From Gemmatimonadetes bacterium T265 (lineage in GTDB: Bacteria > Gemmatimonadota > Gemmatimonadetes > Gemmatimonadales > Gemmatimonadaceae): a stretch of 64,000 nucleotides of DNA. The notes beneath the pieces are model-generated. The model was not told the DNA's origin. It ran no database searches and saw only the letters and a program-made list of their open reading frames with translations. Position numbers and translations under genes: made by a program. Location: assembly GCA_019973575.1 (NCBI GenBank), contig BPUI01000002.1:124001-188000 (forward strand), in the 5' to 3' direction. Shown one piece after another: positions 44,956-55,394 of the stretch (within the stretch, counting starts at the first letter, position 1; each line of letters opens with the position of its first letter).

Positions 44956-45838
44956 CGCCCTCCAGTTCGGCCAGACGCTTCCGGCAGCGCTGCGCCCACG
45001 GCCCGAACGCGCCCGTGGCGCCCGCGCGCCACTCCGCCCGAGCTTCGTGGTGTGCGTCGGCACGCCAGTGCGCCCACCCCAGTTCGTACCGCGCCTCGAC
45101 CAGGTTGGGACCGAGCCGTAACGCGCGCCGCAAGCACGCGACCGCGTCGTCGTACATCTCGCGGCGCGAGTACGTGACGCCGAGGTACAACGTCGCGTAG
45201 AGAACCGCGCGGCGGTCGTCGTCGTCGCGGACGACGCGCGCGAGATGCTCGACCGCCTCGCCGAGGATTCCCTTCGCGAGGCACGCGCGTCCGACCGCGA
45301 CGCGCGCGAGCGACGCCGCCGGGCCGCGCGGGCGCGCGACCAGCACGCGTTGCGCGCCGACGAGCGCGGCATCGACGTCGCCGCGGGCCGCGTGCACCCA
45401 CGCGAGCATCGCGAAGATCTCCGGCTCGTCGGGCGTGAGTGCCAGGGCGCGCTCGAACGCCCGCTCCGCCGCGGCGAGGTCCGCCGCCGCGTACGCATCC
45501 CACCCCTTCGCGACGAACGTCGACGCGCCGAGATGGTCCTGGCGCGTCGATCCGGACACGGGCGCGGGCGGGACCGCGTCCGGCAACCGCTTCCAGAGTT
45601 CGGGCAACGCGCGCGCCGCGTCGGCGAGCGCCCGCCAGGCTCGCGCCTGCGCCTCGGCCGTGCGGATCAAGGCGGAAATTTCGGCGCGCAGTGTCGTCCG
45701 TTCGTCGTGTTCCGCAAGCGGACCGCGCCCGTCCAACCGCGCGTCGAGGCGCGCACGCAATGCCTCGCACTGCCGCTGCACGTCGTCCAACGTCACGTCC
45801 GGCGCCCGCCCGGTCGCCCGCGAGTCGCCGGTTGTCAC
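44936..45838 (-). CDS. TPR protein in the chemosensory-type cluster
   Basis: This 300-residue soluble protein starts at the GTG at 45838, overlapping the cheR stop. The first 60 residues are a coiled coil (TLDDVQRQCEALRARLDARL). Residues 130-290 hold about four TPR-like units (AYAAADLAAAERAFERALAL, AVACLRRALRLGPNLVEARY). There is no signal peptide, so it is cytoplasmic. CheR-TPR pairs are common in alternative chemosensory systems, where the TPR binds the kinase or a partner. The partner here is unknown. Confidence 0.75.
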   Translation of the reverse strand: MTTGDSRATGRAPDVTLDDVQRQCEALRARLDARLDGRGPLAEHDERTTLRAEISALIRTAEAQARAWRALADAARALPELWKRLPDAVPPAPVSGSTRQDHLGASTFVAKGWDAYAAADLAAAERAFERALALTPDEPEIFAMLAWVHAARGDVDAALVGAQRVLVARPRGPAASLARVAVGRACLAKGILGEAVEHLARVVRDDDDRRAVLYATLYLGVTYSRREMYDDAVACLRRALRLGPNLVEARYELGWAHWRADAHHEARAEWRAGATGAFGPWAQRCRKRLAELEGGDAVGA

Positions 45839-46692
45839 GCGTGCCGGAAAATCCGTTGCCGGTGGTCGATCGGCGCGTACAGCCCACGGACGCGGCCGAG
45901 CAGCGTCTCGACCTTCCCGAGAAAGAGCGTACCGCGCGGCGCGAGCGCACCGTGAAACCGCTCGAACAGCGCCTCCTGCGAGTTGCGATCGAAATAGATC
46001 ACGACGTTGCGACAGACAATCAGATCCCACGAACCGTCGGGAGCCGGATCGCGGAGTAGATCGTGGTGTGCGAACCGCGCGATCGCGCGGAGTTCGGGAC
46101 GCACCCGCGCCGGGAACCGCGGCGTGAAATACCGCGCTCGAAACTCCTCCGGCACCTCAGCGAACGCGGGCTCGCCATACACCCCCTCAGCCGCAGCAGC
46201 GAGACTGGCGCGGTCGACATCCGTCCCGAGCACCTCGACGTTCGCCGGTGACTCGCCACGCCGCTCCAACGCGCGGTGGAACACGGCCGCGACCGAGTAC
46301 GCTTCTTCGCCCGACGCGCACCCCGCACTCCAAACCCGCACCGGCCGGCCGGCCTCGGCGAGCAGCGTCGGAACGACGCGGTCGGCCAGCGTGGCCCACG
46401 CGTCCCAGTTCCGGAAGAGCTTCGTGACGTTGATCGTTAGCGCGTCGAGCAGGCGGTCGTACTCGGCCGCATTCTCCTCGAGCACGCGCGCGTAGTCGGC
46501 GAACGTGTGGACGCCCGTCGCGCGCATGCGCACCGCGATCCGCCGCCGCAGGCAACGCTCCTTGTAACTGCCACAACGGAAGAAACGGTCCTCCTCCACC
46601 TTCGCGAGCAACGCGCCGAAGCCGGCGGGGTCATCGGACGCCGCCGGGGCGAGGAGCGGAAGGTGACCGGCAGGCGCAGAAGCGTCGGGCAC
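45835..46692 (-). CDS. cheR: CheR-type protein-glutamate methyltransferase
   Basis: It methylates chemoreceptor glutamates with SAM. At 285 residues it has an N-terminal helical domain (RFFRCGSYKERCLRRRIAVR), TINVTKLFRNWDAW, the SAM site RVWSAGCASGEEAYSVA (119-135), and DLIVCRNVVIYFDRNSQ. No pentapeptide-tethering domain is present. No methyl-accepting receptor or CheB is in the window, so the substrate must be encoded elsewhere or be non-standard. The GTG start at 46692 follows the PATAN-TPR gene by eight bases. Confidence 0.92.
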   Translation of the reverse strand: MPDASAPAGHLPLLAPAASDDPAGFGALLAKVEEDRFFRCGSYKERCLRRRIAVRMRATGVHTFADYARVLEENAAEYDRLLDALTINVTKLFRNWDAWATLADRVVPTLLAEAGRPVRVWSAGCASGEEAYSVAAVFHRALERRGESPANVEVLGTDVDRASLAAAAEGVYGEPAFAEVPEEFRARYFTPRFPARVRPELRAIARFAHHDLLRDPAPDGSWDLIVCRNVVIYFDRNSQEALFERFHGALAPRGTLFLGKVETLLGRVRGLYAPIDHRQRIFRHA

Positions 46693-46700
46693 GCGCGACG

Positions 46701-48347
46701 TTATAGGGCGGCCGGCGCCGCGGCGCCGGATCGGCGGAGCGCGTCGAGGTTGGCGCGGGCCGTCGGGTGTTCGGGTTGCAAGCTACACGCGCGCTCCCAG
46801 GCGCGGCGCGCCCGCTCGCCGTCGCCCGCTCGGAGCGCCAGCGTCCCGAGCCGCGCCCACGCGTCGGCCGACGCGTCCGGAGCGAGCCGCGTCGCGGCCT
46901 CGTACGCCTCCCGCGCGCGATCGAACCGTCCGGCCCGGTACTGCAGTTCGCCGAGCAAGCGTTGCGCGGGCGCGAGGTCGGACCGCTCGGCGAGCGCGCC
47001 CATCACGTCGGCGAGCGCGCCCGCCAGGTGCTCCGGGCGTCGGGTCTGCGCACGATGCGCGGCGCGGTTCGCGAGCAACGCCGCGGCTCGCGGGTGCGCG
47101 GCCCGGCCCTCGCGCGCGAGCGTCGCGGCGCCGCGGGCGTCCCGGACGTAGAGAGCGGCCAGGAGGGCGTAGTGGTACCAGACGGCGGGGGGCGCTGTCC
47201 AGTGCGCGCGGGCGCGTTCGAGCAACTCCCGCGCGACCTCCCACTCGCGCCGATCAAGCGCGAGGGCGGCGCGCGCCGTGAGGTGCCGCGGGTCGTGCTC
47301 AAGGCCGAGTCGCGCCGCGTGCGCATACGCCTCGTGTGCAAGCTCAAGCTGGCCGAGCCGGTGCCGCGCGAGCCCGAGCGCGTGTAGCGCCGCGCCGGAG
47401 ACGCCCGGCATCGTCGCCGCCTCCCCGAGTACCGCGACGGCTTCGTCGAGGCGCCCGGCACGCAGGGCGACCGCGCCGAGGTGGCCACGCGCGCCCACGT
47501 CGCCGGGAAGGAACTCTAGCACGCGTCGGAGTTCGCGCAGCGCGTCGTCGAGCAGTCCGGCCCGCGCGAAGGCGATCCCGAGGTTGAGGTGCTCGTCCGC
47601 GCGTGCGACCGCGAGGTGTGCCGGCACGTCGACCGCCGCCCGCGAGGGCACCCGTCGCACCCGCCCCTCGCGCACGAGCGCGAAGAGCGCGCGCGACACA
47701 TGGTACGGCGCGAGTCCCGCGGCGTCGGCGACGGCCCGAACGTCGCGCGCGCCGTCGAGCAGCGCGATCACGCGCTCCGCGACCTCGTCGCGCGCCGCGT
47801 TCGGCGCGCCGGCCGCCGCGACGGGGGCGAACGTACTCGTGCGGCCGGGAACTTCGGTCGCGATCAGCACCTCGTCGTCCGCGCGCCGCGCGGCCTCGAG
47901 GAGCAGCGATCCGACGTCGAGCCGGGGCGTCAACTCCGACGGCAGCGACGCGACGTCGGAGTCGAAACTGAACGTCCCGCGCGTCCAGCCTAACAACTCG
48001 TACGCCGCCTCGGCCGTCTGCTCCTCGAGCCGCGCGAGCAGCGCGCCGCGCGGCACGCACCCGCGGCGTACGAGTAGGACCCCGAGTGGCGTGTCGGGCT
48101 CCGCCGCCTGTTCGACCAGCGCCGCGCGGAGGTCCGCGTCGTCCAGCAGGCCGCGGCGTACCAACAGCGCGCCGAGCGCGTCGCGGCGGTGCGCGAGTGT
48201 GGCATGCGCCACCGCGCCGTCGACGAACCACAGCGTCCCGAGTTCGCCGTCGCGGGCCGCCGTCAGGCGTCCGGTCCGCCGCCCGAGCGCGAGCAGCTGC
48301 ACGACGTCCGCGAGCGCCGCCTCGGCGATGTTGCCGCGTATCGACAT
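46701..48347 (-). CDS. PATAN (DUF4388) protein with tandem MshEN-like motifs and TPR tail
   Basis: This is a 548-residue cytoplasmic protein. The N-terminus is a DUF4388/PATAN domain (GNIAEAALADVVQLLALGRR, then AAYELLGWTRGTFSF). Inside it, residues 57-80 and 87-110 each fit the 24-residue MshEN cyclic-di-GMP motif pattern LGxxLVxxGxxxxxxLxxxLxxQ, spaced by six residues. The leading Arg of the canonical motif is Ala or Pro here, so ligand binding is uncertain. A winged-helix-like segment follows (about 175-240), then about eight TPR units. It is followed by cheR. The ATG at 48347 lacks a Shine-Dalgarno. Confidence 0.85.
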   Translation of the reverse strand: MSIRGNIAEAALADVVQLLALGRRTGRLTAARDGELGTLWFVDGAVAHATLAHRRDALGALLVRRGLLDDADLRAALVEQAAEPDTPLGVLLVRRGCVPRGALLARLEEQTAEAAYELLGWTRGTFSFDSDVASLPSELTPRLDVGSLLLEAARRADDEVLIATEVPGRTSTFAPVAAAGAPNAARDEVAERVIALLDGARDVRAVADAAGLAPYHVSRALFALVREGRVRRVPSRAAVDVPAHLAVARADEHLNLGIAFARAGLLDDALRELRRVLEFLPGDVGARGHLGAVALRAGRLDEAVAVLGEAATMPGVSGAALHALGLARHRLGQLELAHEAYAHAARLGLEHDPRHLTARAALALDRREWEVARELLERARAHWTAPPAVWYHYALLAALYVRDARGAATLAREGRAAHPRAAALLANRAAHRAQTRRPEHLAGALADVMGALAERSDLAPAQRLLGELQYRAGRFDRAREAYEAATRLAPDASADAWARLGTLALRAGDGERARRAWERACSLQPEHPTARANLDALRRSGAAAPAAL

Positions 48348-48406
48348 CGACCGTCGCCGTTAGGCGTGTCTCGCGCGAGCGGCGCCGCGGACGCGGGCGG
48401 GCGGGC

Positions 48407-48850
48407 TCACGCCAACTCGCCGGCGAGCAGGTCGCCGGCCGCCGGCCACTGAAGCACCCAGTGCTCCGGGTCCGGGAATCCGGCGCGCGCCGCCGCGGCG
48501 CGTTCGCGGCACTCCGCCGCGAGTGCGGCGCCCTCGCGAAGCCGCGCGGGGTCGCGGAACGCGGCGGACCCGGCGAGCGACGGGTCCAGCGCGACCGCTT
48601 CGGCCTCCAACGCGGCGAGTTGCTGCACGGTCTCCGAGAACGTCGCGAGCAGCCCGTCGACGTCCGGCGCGGACGTGAGCGCGAGCGCGCGCTCGAGAAT
48701 GCTGGCGTCGACGCCGCGTCGGCGCCATTCCGCCGCCTCCGCGCTCACCCGTACGCGCCAGGCCGGGATCGCCTCGTCGAGCGCAGACGTGACGTCCGCA
48801 ACCAAACTCGCGAAGCTGTCGGGCGACGCCGCACCCCCTGCCCCACTCAC
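48407..48850 (-). CDS. Hypothetical helical protein in the chemosensory-type cluster
   Basis: I do not recognise this 147-residue soluble protein. It is almost wholly helical (SLVADVTSALDEAIPAWRVR, LLATFSETVQQLAALEAEAV) and ends with a tryptophan pair in HWVLQWPAAGDLLAG. The GTG start overlaps the DUF4388 stop (GTGA), so it belongs to the operon. It may be a small adaptor between PATAN and kinase parts, but nothing in the sequence proves it. Confidence 0.6.
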   Translation of the reverse strand: MSGAGGAASPDSFASLVADVTSALDEAIPAWRVRVSAEAAEWRRRGVDASILERALALTSAPDVDGLLATFSETVQQLAALEAEAVALDPSLAGSAAFRDPARLREGAALAAECRERAAAARAGFPDPEHWVLQWPAAGDLLAGELA

Positions 48851-49509
48851 GCCGCCTGACCCTCGGAGACGTGTTGACCGTCGCAGACGTGCGCCGACAG
48901 TCGACCCACCAGCCCGAGCGCGCGAAGCGAGTGGAGCACGCCGCACACGTGCGCGACGTCGCGCCGCGTCGCCGCCGCGATTGCGTGCACGTCGCGTACG
49001 CCGTCGACCATCGAGAGTACGTGCAGATCCGCCGCGGTGAGTTGGCCGGCGGAATCGCGCTCGGCGCCGCGCCACGCGTCGTGCGCGAGGTGGGGGACGT
49101 CGGGGACGGACGTCGGCGCACGCGCCGCGCGCCGCGCGCGCTCGTCGCGGCGACGCGCGACCTCGACGAGGATGCGCGTCACACTCGCGTCCTCCCCACC
49201 CACCGCGAGCTCAGGCACGAACGCGGCGGGTGCGTCGCCGGCCGCGTAAAACGCCCACCGCCCGGCAACGACGTCGAGCAGGTCGGCGATCGCGCTCACG
49301 TGATCTCCCCGCGGCCCGTCCGGGTCGGGCCTCCGTTGTACCGCGACCACGCGGCCGTCGCGCAGCCGCACGGCCCCACCGCCGAGCGGACCGCCGTCGA
49401 CGACGAGCGTCCCGGTCCGCGCACCAAGCTCTAGGAGCTGCAGGACGTCGCCTAACGCGAAGCCGCGCAGCGCGCCGGCGAGCAGCGGTGCCGGCGCGGC
49501 GTCAGACAC
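48847..49509 (-). CDS. PATAN (DUF4388) domain protein
   Basis: This is a 220-residue cytoplasmic protein. Residues 8-90 form a DUF4388/PATAN domain (GALRGFALGDVLQLLELGAR, GAVRLRDGRVVAVQ, DVVAGRWAFYAAGD). Residues 140-215 look like a small winged-helix (DLHVLSMVDGVRDVHAIAAA). PATAN domains act in cyanobacterial phototaxis regulators and bind motor-type ATPases there. It has a GTG start at 49509, overlapping the preceding TPR gene by eight bases. A TTA-GGC pair carries GTTAGGC. Confidence 0.82.
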   Translation of the reverse strand: MSDAAPAPLLAGALRGFALGDVLQLLELGARTGTLVVDGGPLGGGAVRLRDGRVVAVQRRPDPDGPRGDHVSAIADLLDVVAGRWAFYAAGDAPAAFVPELAVGGEDASVTRILVEVARRRDERARRAARAPTSVPDVPHLAHDAWRGAERDSAGQLTAADLHVLSMVDGVRDVHAIAAATRRDVAHVCGVLHSLRALGLVGRLSAHVCDGQHVSEGQAA

Positions 49510-52195
49510 GACTCACGTCCGCGGCCTCCGCCAGCGCCTCGTCCCGGCGAAGGCCCATGCGGGCGCGCGCGGCGCCGGCGCCAACCGGCAATACGGCGAG
49601 TGCGCGCCGCCACGCGTCGCAGGCCGCCGCCCGGTCGCCCGCGTTCGCGGCACAATCGCCGCAGACGGCCAACGCGAGCGGGTGCTCGGGATCGATGCGG
49701 AGCGCGTCCGCCGCCGCAGTCCGCGCCTCGTCGAAACGGCACGCGTCCGCACACGCCGCCGCGAGCGCGGCGAGCGCGTCCCCGTCGCCGCGGTCGTGAT
49801 CAACCACGCGTGTGAGGTGGGCCTGCGCCGCCGACAGTCGGCCGGTCTCGATCGCGAGATCGGCGCGGGCGCGCCAGACGTCGGCGAGTCCGGGCGCGCG
49901 GTCCGCGAGCGCCTCGAGCAGCGCCTCGGCGGCGTCGGCGCGCCCCGCGCGGGCGAGTGCGCGCGCGCGCGCGAGGGTCGGACTCGGGAGCGCCGGCACG
50001 GCGCGGGCCGCCTCACTCCACGCGTCGGCGGCGGCGTCCCAAGCGCCTAACGCCTGCCACGCGCACGCGACGTCCGCCCAGAACGCCGCCGGATCGGCCG
50101 CGTCGACCGCGTCCCGGCAGGCGCGGGCGCACCGGTCGAGCGCGGCAACCGCCTCGTCCACGGCGCCGTGGTCCGCCGCGGCACGCGCGCGCAGCGCGGC
50201 GAACGACGCGTCCCCGGGCCATCGCGCGAGGGCCGCCGCCGCGCGCGTCCCGCTCTCGACGAAACGACCGAGCCGGTGGAGCGCTCGGATCACGTAACGT
50301 TCCGGTCGCGGGTCGAGCGGCGCCGCGGCCGCCGCGCGGTCGTAGCGCTCCAGCGCGAGCGAGAGTTGCCCGCTTCGGGCGAGGGCGTGCCCCGCACGCA
50401 CCAGGCCCTCGGCGGCGGGTGCGCCGCGGGCGAGCGCCGCATCGACGGCCGCCAACGCGCGCTCGTACTCTCCGGCGGCAAACCGGGCGTCGACGTGCGT
50501 GTAGTCGTGCGCCCGCACCCGAGCGTTGCGCGTCGCGTACTCCGCTGAATCGACGGTGGCGTCGGGGACAGAGGTCGCTCGCACCGGCGAGCCATCGCCC
50601 GGCACGAGCACCGCGCCGTCCGCGTCGACGACGAGGCGAGGGGCGGGACCACGCACGACCGGGCTGAGCGTCGTCGCGCGCGCGAGTTCGGCCTGAGCGG
50701 CGGCCCGATCGCCCGAGGCCCCGGCCGCGAACGCCAGGCCGTAACGCGCCGCCGCGTCGTCGGGCGCGAGCGCACACGCACGCGAGAACGCGGCGCGCGC
50801 GGCTTCGTGGTCGCCCACGTGCGCGAGGGCGCGGCCGTGGGCGGCGTGCGAGGCCGGGTCGCCCGGCGCGAGGCGGACAGCGGCAGCACCCGCCGCGACG
50901 GCGGCCGGTCCGACGCCCGCGTCCGCGAGCAACAGCGCGAGATCGCCCGCGAGCGCCGCCCGCACGTCAGCGTCGAGTCCGCGCGCCCGCGCCGCCGCAT
51001 CGAGCAGGTACATGCGTGCGCTCGGCAGATCACCGCGTCGCCACGCGACGAGCGCCCGGATCGTGGTTGCGCCGGCACAGACGATCGACGATTCGGCGTC
51101 GCGCGCAACGGGCCGGACGGTCACCTCGGCGGCGTCGTGGTCGCCCGCGAGCAGCAATGCGGCGGCGAGGGCCAACGTGTGAGACGCGGGCGCGACACCG
51201 CCCGTCACCTGCACCGACGCCGCGAGTGCAGGCGCGGCCTCGGCCGCCGCACCTCGCAACAGATGGACGACCCCCGACGCGGCCAGCGCCGCCGCGCGCG
51301 TACCGGGCGTTTGATCGGCAGCGAGCGGACCGAGCGCGGCCAACGCTTCGCCGTAGTAGCCCTTATGGCGGAGTGCGGCGGCCGTGGCAAGCGCGTAGCG
51401 CGTCCGCGTCCGATCCGGCGCTGGGTCGGACCGCGAACCCTCGGCGTCACTCGCGCCGGCAGGACGTGCGGCGAGCGGCTCGGCCGCGACCGCCACGTCG
51501 ACCCGGGCGAGCGCGGGGTCGAGCGCGGCCGCTCGCGCTCGACTCGCGACCGCGGCGTCGGTCGCTCCGAGTTCCCCGAGCACGAAACTGCGAAGCAACT
51601 CGGCCTCGGGGTCGTCCGGGGTGGCGGCACGCGCGCGCTCGACCGACGCGAGCGCGCGCACGGAGTCGCCGCGCTGGTACGCCGCGCGGGCTTCGAGCAG
51701 GTCGAGCCGTGCGAACAGGGCGACGTCGCCGGCGAGCGCGTACGCGCTCGCGCCCGCGCGGGCGCGGGCGACCGCGTCGAGCGCGACGTCGGGATGCCCG
51801 GCGTCGATCGCCCAACGCGCCCGCTCCAAAGCCGGCGCAACGGCGGTCGTCGACGCACACTCCCAGCGCGCGAGCGCGTCGGCAGCCGCGTCGAACTCGC
51901 CGCGCGCGGTGTGATGGCGGACGAGCGCGCGCCAGCTGTCGTCATCCGCGGCGTCGGTGCGTACCCGCCTCCACCGCGCCGACGCAGCCGTCGTGCCCTC
52001 CGACGCCAGCACGCGGAGGTTGCGGCGCGCGACACTCACGCCGGCGTCGAGCGCCACCGCACGGTCGAACGCCAGCTCCGCGTCGGCCGCGCGCCCCCCG
52101 AGCCGCAGCACGACGCCGAGGTTGTTTTGCGCGGCCGCGTCGGCCGAGTCGGTCAGCGCAACGAGCCGCGCCGCTGCCGCGTCGCCGATCCGCAC
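49502..52195 (-). CDS. Large TPR protein in the chemosensory-type cluster
   Basis: This 897-residue protein has no signal peptide or membrane helix and consists almost entirely of TPR-like helical pairs (AELAFDRAVALDAGVSVARR, AARAAFSRACALAPDDAAAR, ALERYDRAAAAAPLDPRPER). Around residues 520-560 a non-repeat segment (PRLVVDADGAVLVPGDG) interrupts the array. It is extremely Ala/Arg-rich, as expected at this GC. It is downstream of cheC by 34 bases and overlaps the DUF4388 gene. A scaffold for the kinase array or for PATAN proteins is a reasonable inference. Confidence 0.75.
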   Translation of the reverse strand: MRIGDAAAARLVALTDSADAAAQNNLGVVLRLGGRAADAELAFDRAVALDAGVSVARRNLRVLASEGTTAASARWRRVRTDAADDDSWRALVRHHTARGEFDAAADALARWECASTTAVAPALERARWAIDAGHPDVALDAVARARAGASAYALAGDVALFARLDLLEARAAYQRGDSVRALASVERARAATPDDPEAELLRSFVLGELGATDAAVASRARAAALDPALARVDVAVAAEPLAARPAGASDAEGSRSDPAPDRTRTRYALATAAALRHKGYYGEALAALGPLAADQTPGTRAAALAASGVVHLLRGAAAEAAPALAASVQVTGGVAPASHTLALAAALLLAGDHDAAEVTVRPVARDAESSIVCAGATTIRALVAWRRGDLPSARMYLLDAAARARGLDADVRAALAGDLALLLADAGVGPAAVAAGAAAVRLAPGDPASHAAHGRALAHVGDHEAARAAFSRACALAPDDAAARYGLAFAAGASGDRAAAQAELARATTLSPVVRGPAPRLVVDADGAVLVPGDGSPVRATSVPDATVDSAEYATRNARVRAHDYTHVDARFAAGEYERALAAVDAALARGAPAAEGLVRAGHALARSGQLSLALERYDRAAAAAPLDPRPERYVIRALHRLGRFVESGTRAAAALARWPGDASFAALRARAAADHGAVDEAVAALDRCARACRDAVDAADPAAFWADVACAWQALGAWDAAADAWSEAARAVPALPSPTLARARALARAGRADAAEALLEALADRAPGLADVWRARADLAIETGRLSAAQAHLTRVVDHDRGDGDALAALAAACADACRFDEARTAAADALRIDPEHPLALAVCGDCAANAGDRAAACDAWRRALAVLPVGAGAARARMGLRRDEALAEAADVSRV

Positions 52196-52229: not shown

Positions 52230-52892
52230 CTACGCGACGCGCGTCGCGCGCAGGATGAGGCCGAGCGACGGCGGGTCGGGCAGGAGCAGAAAGAACCCGT
52301 GCAGCCGGTCGGCGACGTCCTTGATCACGAACTCCGTCTCGACGACGAACACGTACTCGGCGACGGTGTCGAGTCGGAGGAACGACGGCGTGAGCACGCT
52401 CGACGCCCGATCGAGCGCGAGCAGCGGCGGCGAGGGAAGGACGACGAGCCCCATGAAGTCGCTGAGCGCGTTCAGGTACGCGCCGCTCAGGATGTTCCCC
52501 GCCTCGCGAAGCGCCGACCGTTCCATCTCGCCGAGTGCGACCGACGCGCCGACCGGTCGGCGGAGCATGCGCTCCGCAAGCCGAAGCACGGTCGGCTTCG
52601 GGAGCATCAGCAGCGTGCGTCCGGTAAGGTCGCCCATGACGTCCATGAGCACCGCGGCCACGAACTCGCTCTCCGACGCGAGCTGGGGCGCGATGTCGCC
52701 CAGCGCCGCGACGTGGACCGTCGGCACGCTGATCATGATCGGACTGCCGGTGATCTGCGAGAGCGCCGTCGCCGCGTGGCCGGCGCCGATGTTCGCGACC
52801 TCGCGCAGCGCGTCGCGCTGGACGGCGTTCAGCGTGCGCGGGTCGTCTACGCGATAGCCGTTGACAGCGGGGCGGACGGGGGCGAGGGTCAC
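52230..52892 (-). CDS. cheC: CheC-type CheY-P phosphatase
   Basis: It dephosphorylates CheY-P. At 220 residues both active-site helices are intact: LREVANIGAGHAATALSQIT and LREAGNILSGAYLNALSDFM, each with the ExxN pattern. Most CheC proteins work with CheD; no cheD is here. The start is the GTG at 52892 in a GTGA overlap with cheA. CheC without CheD suggests plain signal termination rather than receptor deamidation. Confidence 0.93.
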   Translation of the reverse strand: MTLAPVRPAVNGYRVDDPRTLNAVQRDALREVANIGAGHAATALSQITGSPIMISVPTVHVAALGDIAPQLASESEFVAAVLMDVMGDLTGRTLLMLPKPTVLRLAERMLRRPVGASVALGEMERSALREAGNILSGAYLNALSDFMGLVVLPSPPLLALDRASSVLTPSFLRLDTVAEYVFVVETEFVIKDVADRLHGFFLLLPDPPSLGLILRATRVA

Positions 52893-54529
52893 GTCGGGGC
52901 TCTCGTGGCGGCGGGGGTGGCGGTCGCGAGGCGCCGCGCGACGGCGGGGACGTCGAGGACGAGCGCGACTTCCCCGCCGTCGAGTATCGTCGCTCCCGCG
53001 GCGATCCTGAACGCACCGCGTGGCGTCGCGACGGGCTTCAGGACGCAGTCGCGGGTGCCGACGAGCGCGTCGACCGCGACCGCAATCGCCGGCGCGTCGG
53101 ACGCCGGCGCGAGCAGCACAATCTCCGCGTCCGGGCCGCCGCCGGCGCGCACCGGCGCGCCGAGTACCGCGGCGAGCGACGGCGCGCCCGCGTCGGCGGC
53201 CGACGCCTCGCGCGTGCCGCGCACGTGAACGAGCGGGATCGCGAACGCGGCTCCGCCCGCGCGGGCGACGAGCGCGGGCACGACCGCCCACGCCAGGGGC
53301 ATGCGGAGCGTGAACGTCGTTCCCACGCCCGCGGCCGTCTCAAGGGTGAGCGCGCCGCCTAACGCTCGCACGCGCGCGAGCGCGGCGTCCACGCCGACGC
53401 CCCGCCCCGAGATGTTGCCGACCGTGTGCGCGGTCGTGAGGCCGGGGAGGGCGAGACATTCGAGGAGCGTGGCGTCGTCGACCGCGCCGTCCCGAACGTC
53501 GGTCGCGCCGTCGACCGCGCCGCCCCGGGCGCGCGCGCGCGCAGCTACCGCGTCGCGGTCGACACCGCGCCCGTCGTCCGCGACTTGGACCACGAGCGCG
53601 TTCCCGTCGCGCGCCGCCCGGACGACCACGCGCCCCTCGGGCGGTTTGCCGGCGCCGACACGCGCGGCAGGAGCCTCGATTCCGTGGTCGACCGCGTTGC
53701 GCAGCAGGTGAACGAGCGGCTCGGCGAGCGCGTCGATCACGGCGCGGTCCGCGACGACGTCGCCGCCGTGCGTCTCGAACGCGACCTGTTTGCCCGTCGC
53801 ACCCGCGGCCTGACGCACGACTCGTGGCAACTCGGCGAGGAGCTCGGCGACGGCGACCAGCCGTGCGGAGCGCACCTCGTCGCCGAACGCGCCCGAAACG
53901 CGCCCGAGGTCGGCGACCGCACGCGCCAGTGTTGCGTCGCCGCTCTGCGCGGCGGCGTTGGCGAGCCGGTCGCACACGCCCGTGAGGTCGCCCGCGAGGT
54001 CGAGCAGGCGGTCGAGCGACCCGACGTCGACGCGCATCGTACTCGCGACGGCTGCCGGCAACGCGCGGCGGACGTCGGCGGGCGCAATCGCCTGCGGCGA
54101 CCGATCGGTCGGCGAGGTCGCCAGCATTGCTAACGCAGCAACGGCGTCGTGCACGCGTGCTTGCTCGTCCGCCGCGTGATCCGGCGCGATGCTGGCCTCG
54201 ACCGAGTCTTCGAGGGTGTCGAGCGCAGTCACGATCGCCGGCACGCTCCGGGTCCGGAGGTCCGCCGACCCCTCACGAAGTCGGGCGAGCGCGCTTTCGA
54301 GCGCGTGCGCGATCGCTTCGACCGGCGCGTACCCCATCGCCCCGGACATCCCTTTCACGGTGTGCACGCTCCGGAAGAGCGCGTCCACCTCGGCCGTCGC
54401 GCCGCCGTCCGCCGCCAGTCGCGTGATCGCACCGCGCGCCGCGCCGAGTTGTTCGCGCGCCTCGCGGGCGAAAAGGGCCGCGTACTTGGCCGCGGAAAGC
54501 TCGGGCGCGAGCCCCGCGCCCGTGCTCAG
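52889..54529 (-). CDS. cheA: Chemotaxis-type histidine kinase CheA
   Basis: This is a 546-residue kinase. The HPt domain has phospho-acceptor H56 in LFRSVHTVKGMSGAMGY. There is no clear P2 CheY-binding domain. A P3 dimerisation helix pair, the HATPase domain (LVHLLRNAVDHGIEAP, VADDGRGVD, NISGRGVGVDAAL) and a C-terminal CheW-like P5 domain (AFAIPLVHVRGTR) follow. No ATG, GTG or TTG exists in frame between the cheY gene and the HPt helix. The only start consistent with an intact HPt is a CTG at 54529, which overlaps the cheY TGA as CTGA. The stop overlaps cheC. Confidence 0.9.
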   Translation of the reverse strand: MSTGAGLAPELSAAKYAALFAREAREQLGAARGAITRLAADGGATAEVDALFRSVHTVKGMSGAMGYAPVEAIAHALESALARLREGSADLRTRSVPAIVTALDTLEDSVEASIAPDHAADEQARVHDAVAALAMLATSPTDRSPQAIAPADVRRALPAAVASTMRVDVGSLDRLLDLAGDLTGVCDRLANAAAQSGDATLARAVADLGRVSGAFGDEVRSARLVAVAELLAELPRVVRQAAGATGKQVAFETHGGDVVADRAVIDALAEPLVHLLRNAVDHGIEAPAARVGAGKPPEGRVVVRAARDGNALVVQVADDGRGVDRDAVAARARARGGAVDGATDVRDGAVDDATLLECLALPGLTTAHTVGNISGRGVGVDAALARVRALGGALTLETAAGVGTTFTLRMPLAWAVVPALVARAGGAAFAIPLVHVRGTREASAADAGAPSLAAVLGAPVRAGGGPDAEIVLLAPASDAPAIAVAVDALVGTRDCVLKPVATPRGAFRIAAGATILDGGEVALVLDVPAVARRLATATPAATRAPT

Positions 54530-54891
54530 GCCAGGGCTCGCTCGGCGGCCTCGACGACGCGGGCCGGCTGGAACGGCTTCACGACGAAGTCGCGTGCGCC
54601 GGCCTGAATCGCCTCCACGACGAGGGCCTGCTGACCCATCGCGCTGCACATCACGACGCGGGCGGCCGGGTCGTGCGCGCGGATCGCGCGCACCGCGTCC
54701 ACCCCGCCCATGTCGGGCATGACGATGTCCATGGTGACGAGGTCCGGGCTCAGGTCGCGGTACCGGGCGACGGCTTCGGCACCGGTCGTCGCCTCGCCGA
54801 CCACGTTGTAACCCGCCTGCTGAAGGATGTCGCTGACCATCGCCCGCATGAACAGGGCGTCGTCGCAAACCAGGACCGTGTGCGCCATCAT
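54526..54891 (-). CDS. cheY: Single-domain response regulator CheY
   Basis: This 121-residue receiver has the acidic pair VCDDALFM, phospho-acceptor D55 in LVTMDIVMPDMGG, Thr/Ser at CSAMG, and Lys in FVVKPFQP. There is no output domain, so it acts by protein contact. The start is the first of two tandem ATGs (54891), overlapping the cheW TGA as ATGA. A strong Shine-Dalgarno GGAGGAAG lies right before it, one of few in the window. It sits between cheW and cheA. Confidence 0.95.
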   Translation of the reverse strand: MMAHTVLVCDDALFMRAMVSDILQQAGYNVVGEATTGAEAVARYRDLSPDLVTMDIVMPDMGGVDAVRAIRAHDPAARVVMCSAMGQQALVVEAIQAGARDFVVKPFQPARVVEAAERALA

Positions 54892-55394
54892 CTTCCTCCG
54901 TCGGAGTCGTCGACCACGTCGCCGATGAGCGCCGCCGCGTCGAGCAACGGCAGCACGGGGCCGTTGGCGGCGTCGGGCCGCGCGGCGCCGAGGAGACGCA
55001 CGGCGCCGGAGACGGGCAACAGCCGCCCGGACCAGAGGCGGACGGCGGGAACGTCGGACGCGGCGCGCCCCGTCACGGGGCGCGCGGCGGCAACACGCGC
55101 CGGCGACGCGCCGCTGAGCGCGATCGCGCGCGTGCCCGATGCGATCACGACGGCCGCGCGACCGGCGTCGTTGCTCGGCGCGAAGTCGAGCACGGGCACG
55201 ATGTGCCCGCGCACGGCCGTGACACCTGACACGTCTGCCGGCGCCCCCGGGTAGGCGCTGACGCGGTCCACGCGCGCGACCTCGCGGACCACCCCAACCG
55301 GGATCGCGATCGGTGTGCTCCCATCGGGAAACGCGAGCACGAGAACGTCGAACACCGGCGGCCCGTCCGGGGCCGTGGCATCGGATTCCGTCAT
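54888..55394 (-). CDS. cheW: CheW-type coupling protein
   Basis: It couples receptors to CheA. At 168 residues it has a CheW fold: FDVLVLAFPDGSTPIAIPVG, VVREVARVDRVSAYPGAP, VSGVTAVRGHIVPVLDFAP. It is the first gene of the cheW-cheY-cheA-cheC run, starting 21 bases after rluD. The ATG at 55394 has no clear Shine-Dalgarno. The chemoreceptor that should partner it is not in the window. Confidence 0.92.
   Translation of the reverse strand: MTESDATAPDGPPVFDVLVLAFPDGSTPIAIPVGVVREVARVDRVSAYPGAPADVSGVTAVRGHIVPVLDFAPSNDAGRAAVVIASGTRAIALSGASPARVAAARPVTGRAASDVPAVRLWSGRLLPVSGAVRLLGAARPDAANGPVLPLLDAAALIGDVVDDSDGGR

Follow-up and report, generated by a model that had tools for sequence, protein, structure and literature searches.

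A predicted MshEN_N-type cassette embedded in the PATAN domain of a PATAN-TPR protein from a Gemmatimonadota chemosensory operon

Architecture of PATAN-B and its tandem motifs

A 64,000-nucleotide stretch of the genome of Gemmatimonadetes bacterium T265, a soil-type member of Gemmatimonadaceae (GCA_019973575.1, contig BPUI01000002.1, positions 124,001 to 188,000; hereafter the window), encodes a 548-residue protein with an ATG start, named here PATAN-B (46701..48347, minus strand, as are all window genes and features below). The open reading frame (ORF) has a GC content of 0.89 at codon position 3. Its PATAN domain, residues 1-158 (47874..48347), was recognized by Pfam as DUF4388 (PF14332; residues 4-158, E 1e-28, 100 bits against a cut-off of 25). 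It is followed by a weak winged-helix-like segment at residues 203-237 (47637..47741; FaeA-like, E 0.0045, under that model's cut-off) and by an array of tetratricopeptide repeats (TPRs) at about residues 250-535 (46743..47600), which matched several TPR families. A preliminary description, made from the sequence alone, had proposed a DUF4388/PATAN domain ahead of a TPR array, and the Pfam matches bear this out. No receiver domain (Response_reg) was found in PATAN-B by the Pfam scan, and the TPR array takes the C-terminal place.

Two motifs of 24 residues each lie within the PATAN domain: motif I at residues 57-80 (ALGALLVRRGLLDDADLRAALVEQ; 48108..48179) and motif II at residues 87-110 (PLGVLLVRRGCVPRGALLARLEEQ; 48018..48089), separated by the six-residue spacer AAEPDT (residues 81-86; 48090..48107). 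This layout had been noted in the preliminary description, and the fit is exact. The pattern.LGxx[LVI][LVI]xxGxxxxxxLxxxLxxQ starts only at residues 57 and 87 of the 158-residue domain, with Leu2, Gly3, Gly10, Leu17, Leu21 and Gln24 present in both copies. Among 200,000 shuffles of these 158 residues, a single strict motif arose 2 times and the tandem arrangement 0 times. A spacer of six residues is also usual among relatives of the protein; it is five residues long in V. cholerae MshE (PMC5013675). Position 1, which the same description had read as Ala and Pro rather than Arg, is indeed Ala at residue 57 and Pro at residue 87, and the acidic position 4 is replaced as well (Asp4 to Ala in motif I, Glu4 to Val in motif II).

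Homology and predicted fold of the insert

When the PATAN domain was compared with all PDB sequences using phmmer, MshEN/GSPII domains alone were matched, weakly (best E 0.006); the closest single-sequence matches of the window domain were GSPII-B and GSPII-C of Thermus thermophilus PilF. A profile of 29 orthologous domains matched PilF (1.3e-14), MshE (5HTL, 7.9e-8) and PilB chains, in alignments spanning residues 52-113, with one chance match besides. The PATAN core alone gave no convincing match among solved structures.

The AlphaFold2 model of the window domain (predicted local distance difference test score, pLDDT, 89) contains helices at residues 58-64, 70-82, 88-94 and 100-119, placed between the PATAN strand 45-51 and the strand 125-129. 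All of the best Foldseek matches were c-di-GMP (cyclic di-GMP)-bound MshEN/GSPII domains or PilB N-domains. They included c-di-GMP-bound MshE (5htl_B; root-mean-square deviation 1.0 Å over 56 columns, 36% identity) and c-di-GMP-bound PilF GSPII-B (1.3-1.5 Å), both with a probability of 1.00 (5HTL and 8PDK). The Foldseek E-values were high (0.2-0.3) because only a third of the query was aligned. The superposition agrees with the MshEN-like fold anticipated earlier for residues 57-110, and the models indicate that the two motifs form a real four-helix MshEN_N cassette inside the PATAN domain.

The NCBIfam model NF053729 ("cyclic di-GMP-binding domain, MshE-related"; 53 positions, cut-off 38 bits) describes the same module and matched 29/29 family members scanned at E<=0.1 (best 5e-15). 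Among six canonical relatives, five scored above the cut-off (L004, L014, L016, L025 and L027, 39-55 bits), and L032 reached 36.4 bits. The Pfam MshEN model PF05157 has no match in PATAN-B, nor was a C-terminal MshEN subdomain detected with it there. This silence was dismissed as counter-evidence because PF05157 models the C-subdomain only and starts past the 53-residue motif: in the PilB-like ATPase of the window genome it matches residues 85-172, and the c-di-GMP motif ends at 84. As tested on the L033 ORF, PF05157 omits the 53 c-di-GMP-binding residues, and counts based on it miss proteins that carry the N-subdomain only.

PATAN-B shares with the MshEN domain of MshE (5HTL; PMC5013675) the two tandem 24-residue motifs, the four-helix MshEN_N fold and the Leu/Gly/Gln contact positions. 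It differs in having the N-subdomain only, with no MshEN_C, in its spacer of six residues, one more than in MshE, and its Ala/Pro at position 1, and in being inserted inside another domain, whereas the MshE domain is N-terminal to an ATPase. PilF GSPII-B and -C (PMC11731258) are the closest domains by sequence and fold (43-45% identity). They bind c-di-GMP with the position-1 Arg replaced (Lys/Leu in GSPII-B, Pro in motif II of GSPII-C), but PilF keeps the C-subdomain, and no measured precedent was found for Ala at motif I as a natural variant. The PATAN core itself is shared with PatA, PixG, PixE and LsiR (PMC5812497, PMC12288463); PatA/PixG-type proteins have a receiver domain where PATAN-B has fused TPRs.

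Conservation of the cassette

An alignment-based scan yielded 340 relatives, of which the best 80 were kept; these 80 came from Gemmatimonadota-titled records, except one 'bacterium' and one Planctomycetota. A single-sequence scan of genome contigs found no relatives. DUF4388 is present in 107/118 genomes of Gemmatimonadaceae.

Conservation was evaluated over 101 distinct homologous domains, with contact positions defined from the c-di-GMP contacts in MshE 5HTL (PMC5013675). In motif I, Gly3 is present in all 101 domains, Arg1 in 97 and Gln24 in 95. In motif II, 93 domains carry Arg or Lys at position 1, and Gly3, Leu17 and Gln24 occur in 95, 100 and 101. Gly10, with a role in the turn only, is more variable (72/101 and 53/101). 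Mean conservation is 3.76 bits at contact positions, against 2.86 at core hydrophobic and turn positions (p 0.03) and 2.33 at the rest (p 4e-6), p-values that are descriptive only, the 101 sequences being related. Arg1 and Asp4 co-occur in 95/101 homologues; in MshE, the acidic side chain at position 4 holds the position-1 Arg (PMC11731258). The conservation of both motifs among orthologues, a check suggested at the outset, is thus higher at the contact residues than anywhere else in the insert. This pattern is what selection for a ligand would give. Embedding of MshEN_N is the rule in Gemmatimonadaceae PATAN proteins rather than a peculiarity of the window gene, and the canonical relatives would likely bind c-di-GMP in a useful range.

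A Gemmatimonas-type clade (L023, L024, L026, L028, L030, L031 and L137) has kept the helical insert with Gly3 changed to Ala in motif II and Gln24 lost from motif I. Its predicted c-di-GMP binding has probably been lost.

Operon context and modularity

PATAN-B is a member of a conserved chemosensory operon. As the preliminary description had noticed, cheR lies next to the gene: it begins 8 bases downstream (45835..46692; PF01739, E 2e-48). On the other side lie orfX (48407..48835, start provisional), a remnant of about 142 residues matching the middle of a tandem-DnaA-ATPase protein of relatives; a second PATAN protein, PATAN-A, which is without a cassette (48847..49509; DUF4388, E 2e-11); and a large TPR protein (49502..52195). 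These are followed by a cheC/cheX-type phosphatase ORF, whose conserved part is the C-terminal ~206 residues (52230..53291; PF04509, E 4e-23), a cheA kinase ORF with Hpt, HATPase_c and CheW domains (52889..54868, start probably near 54520), cheY (54526..54891; PF00072, E 2e-30) and cheW (54888..55394; PF01584, E 7e-10).

Comparison of 20 operons revealed a near-constant order: lspA, rluD, cheW, cheY, cheA, cheC, TPR, PATAN-A, (mglB-like, mglA-like, tandem-DnaA protein), PATAN-B, cheR, (cheD, a CheY-containing gene, cheW), TPR. No mglA- or mglB-like gene was found in the window operon, in the gap 48360-48847. In relatives, a MglA-like small GTPase with a GPGRSGKT P-loop lies between PATAN-A and PATAN-B (L129:7583-9067, L125:5866-6474 and L133:6611-7216), and in L129 a roadblock (MglB-like) gene is additionally located there. 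The same operon in L129 encodes a 631-residue protein with two tandem Bac_DnaA ATPase domains (L129:9069-10964, plus strand; PF00308, 9.6e-103, two stretches).

In five PATAN-B orthologues, encoded in the same operon, precisely the 54-residue cassette is missing (..SIVNRNLSTEEAVY.. versus ..SIVNRRD[54 residues]IEEAVY..). They form one clade in a tree built without the cassette columns, and their predicted core fold is unchanged. Among PATAN-A orthologues, the cassette is present in most genera and absent from the window, from the Gemmatimonas-type genus and from the two relatives closest to the window protein. L122 and L140 combine a PATAN-B without the cassette and a PATAN-A with it. The cassette is modular, and its presence or absence in PATAN-A is independent of that in PATAN-B. 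In the models, the final helix of the cassette (100-119 in the window protein) is continued by the PATAN core helix just past the insertion site, which spans 57-64 in the cassette-less protein. This continuity points to a direct mechanical coupling of the cassette to the core.

Cyclic di-GMP signalling context

The window genome has 24 GGDEF places and 14 EAL places; each of the four GGDEF places that were read has GG[DE]EF preceded by an RxxD. No PilZ match was found in this genome. Genome-wide, the MshEN_N-type motif (NF053729) occurs in two places only, once in the PilB-like ATPase and once in PATAN-B. With two motif places and no PilZ, PATAN-B is one of few candidate c-di-GMP receptors. 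Across Gemmatimonadaceae, PilZ is found in 16/81 genomes and in none of the other 65/81, and GGDEF in 116/116; synthesis that is universal, yet mostly without PilZ, leaves a gap in the c-di-GMP receptors of the family. Loss of c-di-GMP synthesis from the cassette-less lineages is unsupported by these 116 genomes.

Genes for flagellin, for a few chemoreceptors and for a single MglA homologue lie elsewhere in the window genome. In Synechocystis, PATAN regulators bind PilB1, a pilus motor (PMC12288463, PMC10519157), and PATAN genes have been found near mgl genes and with chemosensory genes (PMC4316618). Because of these precedents, pili or polarity is the leading guess, by analogy, for the output of the system.

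Interpretation and alternative explanations

The explanation that we favor, and consider probable as a whole, is that PATAN-B is a PATAN-TPR adaptor of the Gemmatimonadota chemosensory operon (CheW/Y/A/C/R, with mglA/mglB-like genes in relatives) carrying an MshEN_N cassette that has diverged in the window species. The 54-residue cassette sits after PATAN strand 4 and before the next PATAN helix. It is a homologue of MshEN_N, the half of MshE/PilB-type ATPases that has four helices and binds c-di-GMP. For most relatives, binding of one c-di-GMP by the cassette is predicted. The last cassette helix, bearing Leu103, Leu107 and Gln110, is modelled as unbroken into the PATAN core helix 100-119, and binding may be relayed along it to the PATAN surface and on to TPR/Che partners, with a possible output to pili, flagella or polarity. 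The preliminary description had suggested that the motifs link c-di-GMP to the chemosensory pathway. At the level of the family, with its conserved contact residues and conserved operon, it is indeed likely that the Che/Mgl pathway receives an input from c-di-GMP; for the window copy, which has lost Arg1 and the acidic partner from both motifs, the suggestion is weakened.

In cyanobacteria, PATAN domains control the motors of type IV pili, and the literature found does not state a ligand for their helical insertion. Makarova et al. already mention an alpha-helical insertion in the title of their 2006 PATAN paper. Our literature search, which did not cover that paper itself, found no paper equating the PATAN insertion with MshEN_N or tying it to c-di-GMP. 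Recognizing the insertion as the c-di-GMP-binding half of MshEN makes c-di-GMP binding by PATAN directly testable and, if true, would name a receptor for genomes rich in GGDEF but without PilZ. A broader and more tentative proposal is that, in the mostly PilZ-less Gemmatimonadaceae, plug-in MshEN_N cassettes in PATAN adaptors could be a main c-di-GMP receptor gating a chemosensory/MglA-type pathway via the shared helix. Gain, loss or weakening of the cassette would have taken place separately in each of the operon's two PATAN paralogues, and the Arg-free window version would be tuned to another affinity.

The strongest alternative, to which we give nearly the same weight as its opposite, is that the window cassette has ceased to bind c-di-GMP at physiological concentrations and is retained only as a structural or protein-interaction part, like the non-binding domains of XpsE and PilF GSPII-A, the relatives alone being sensors. 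Several observations speak for it and against binding by the window copy. Among the 101 homologues, it is the sole one with positions 1 and 4 lost in both motifs (ALGA, PLGV), unlike the 95 in which Arg and its acidic partner occur together. Its NF053729 match (residues 58-110) reaches 32.0-35.8 bits, just under the 38-bit cut-off. Both motifs lack the stacking Arg: neither Ala57 nor Pro87 falls within the Arg consensus or the widened Arg/Lys/Leu consensus for position 1 (PMC11731258), and both lack the large hydrophobic face of Lys and Leu. In PilF GSPII-A, Ser for Arg at motif II abolished the residual weak binding (PMC12002112). The PATAN-A paralogue of the window species has lost its cassette, the Gemmatimonas-type clade shows outright decay, and the fast evolution of the window lineage (end branch 1.03; ~40% identity to most orthologues), together with its lost neighbouring operon genes, makes relaxed constraint possible.

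Other evidence is more consistent with retained binding. Despite this long branch, none of the ten remaining contact residues (Leu, Gly, Leu, Leu and Gln in each motif) has been lost. PilF GSPII-B, whose position-1 residues are Lys and Leu, binds c-di-GMP at 6 nM, and GSPII-C, with Pro at motif II position 1, binds near 500 nM, about like MshE, so neither has the full canonical Arg pair (PMC11731258). In MshE, changing Arg9, Asp12 or Gln32 shifted the affinity by a factor of about five at most (PMC5013675). The odds that the window copy binds c-di-GMP in a useful range are thus close to even. Under the favored explanation, its affinity is predicted to be lowered, or its binding to be hydrophobic as in PilF, rather than canonical-MshE-like. 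In the tree, the window protein clusters with L025 and L032 (Shimodaira-Hasegawa-like approximate likelihood ratio test, SH-aLRT, 96 and 100); the loss of Arg is most simply secondary, since both keep Arg/Lys at position 1. The Arg-less copy is a naturally occurring test of the drift that the MshEN consensus can tolerate.

An unlikely alternative is that the cassette is a surface for a protein partner (a MglA-type GTPase, CheA or a PilB-type ATPase) or binds another nucleotide, c-di-GMP not being the main ligand even in relatives. The binding of PilB1 by PATAN regulators and the mglA- and mglB-like genes of the relatives' operons would fit this, as would the presence of c-di-GMP synthesis genes whatever the cassette state, retention not tracking synthesis. 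Against it, the most conserved residues are those contacting c-di-GMP in 5HTL, and protein contacts alone would hardly account for the Arg-Asp pairing. Coincidence in Leu/Ala-rich helices or TPR-like repeats, with no MshEN domain at all, might have been suspected from the Ala/Leu/Arg-rich composition of PATAN-B, its TPRs further on and the missing Pfam match, which carries no weight here; it is refuted by the shuffles, the profile searches, the 1.0-1.3 Å fold match and the NCBIfam match, the fold and profile matches being to MshEN only.

A comparison across phyla, made through plasmid records, gave nothing beyond a PATAN of Thermomicrobium, whose insert is helical but poor in motifs, and a partial match in Acetoanaerobium. 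The PATAN domain of the Planctomycetota-titled record (L045, JADLHO010000107.1) is 85% identical to Gemmatimonadota ones, and the record is probably a mislabelled or contaminated metagenome-assembled genome. The only MglA match of the window genome (G000:C1:118432) is a different-looking paralogue, with GPGLGGKT at the P-loop position.
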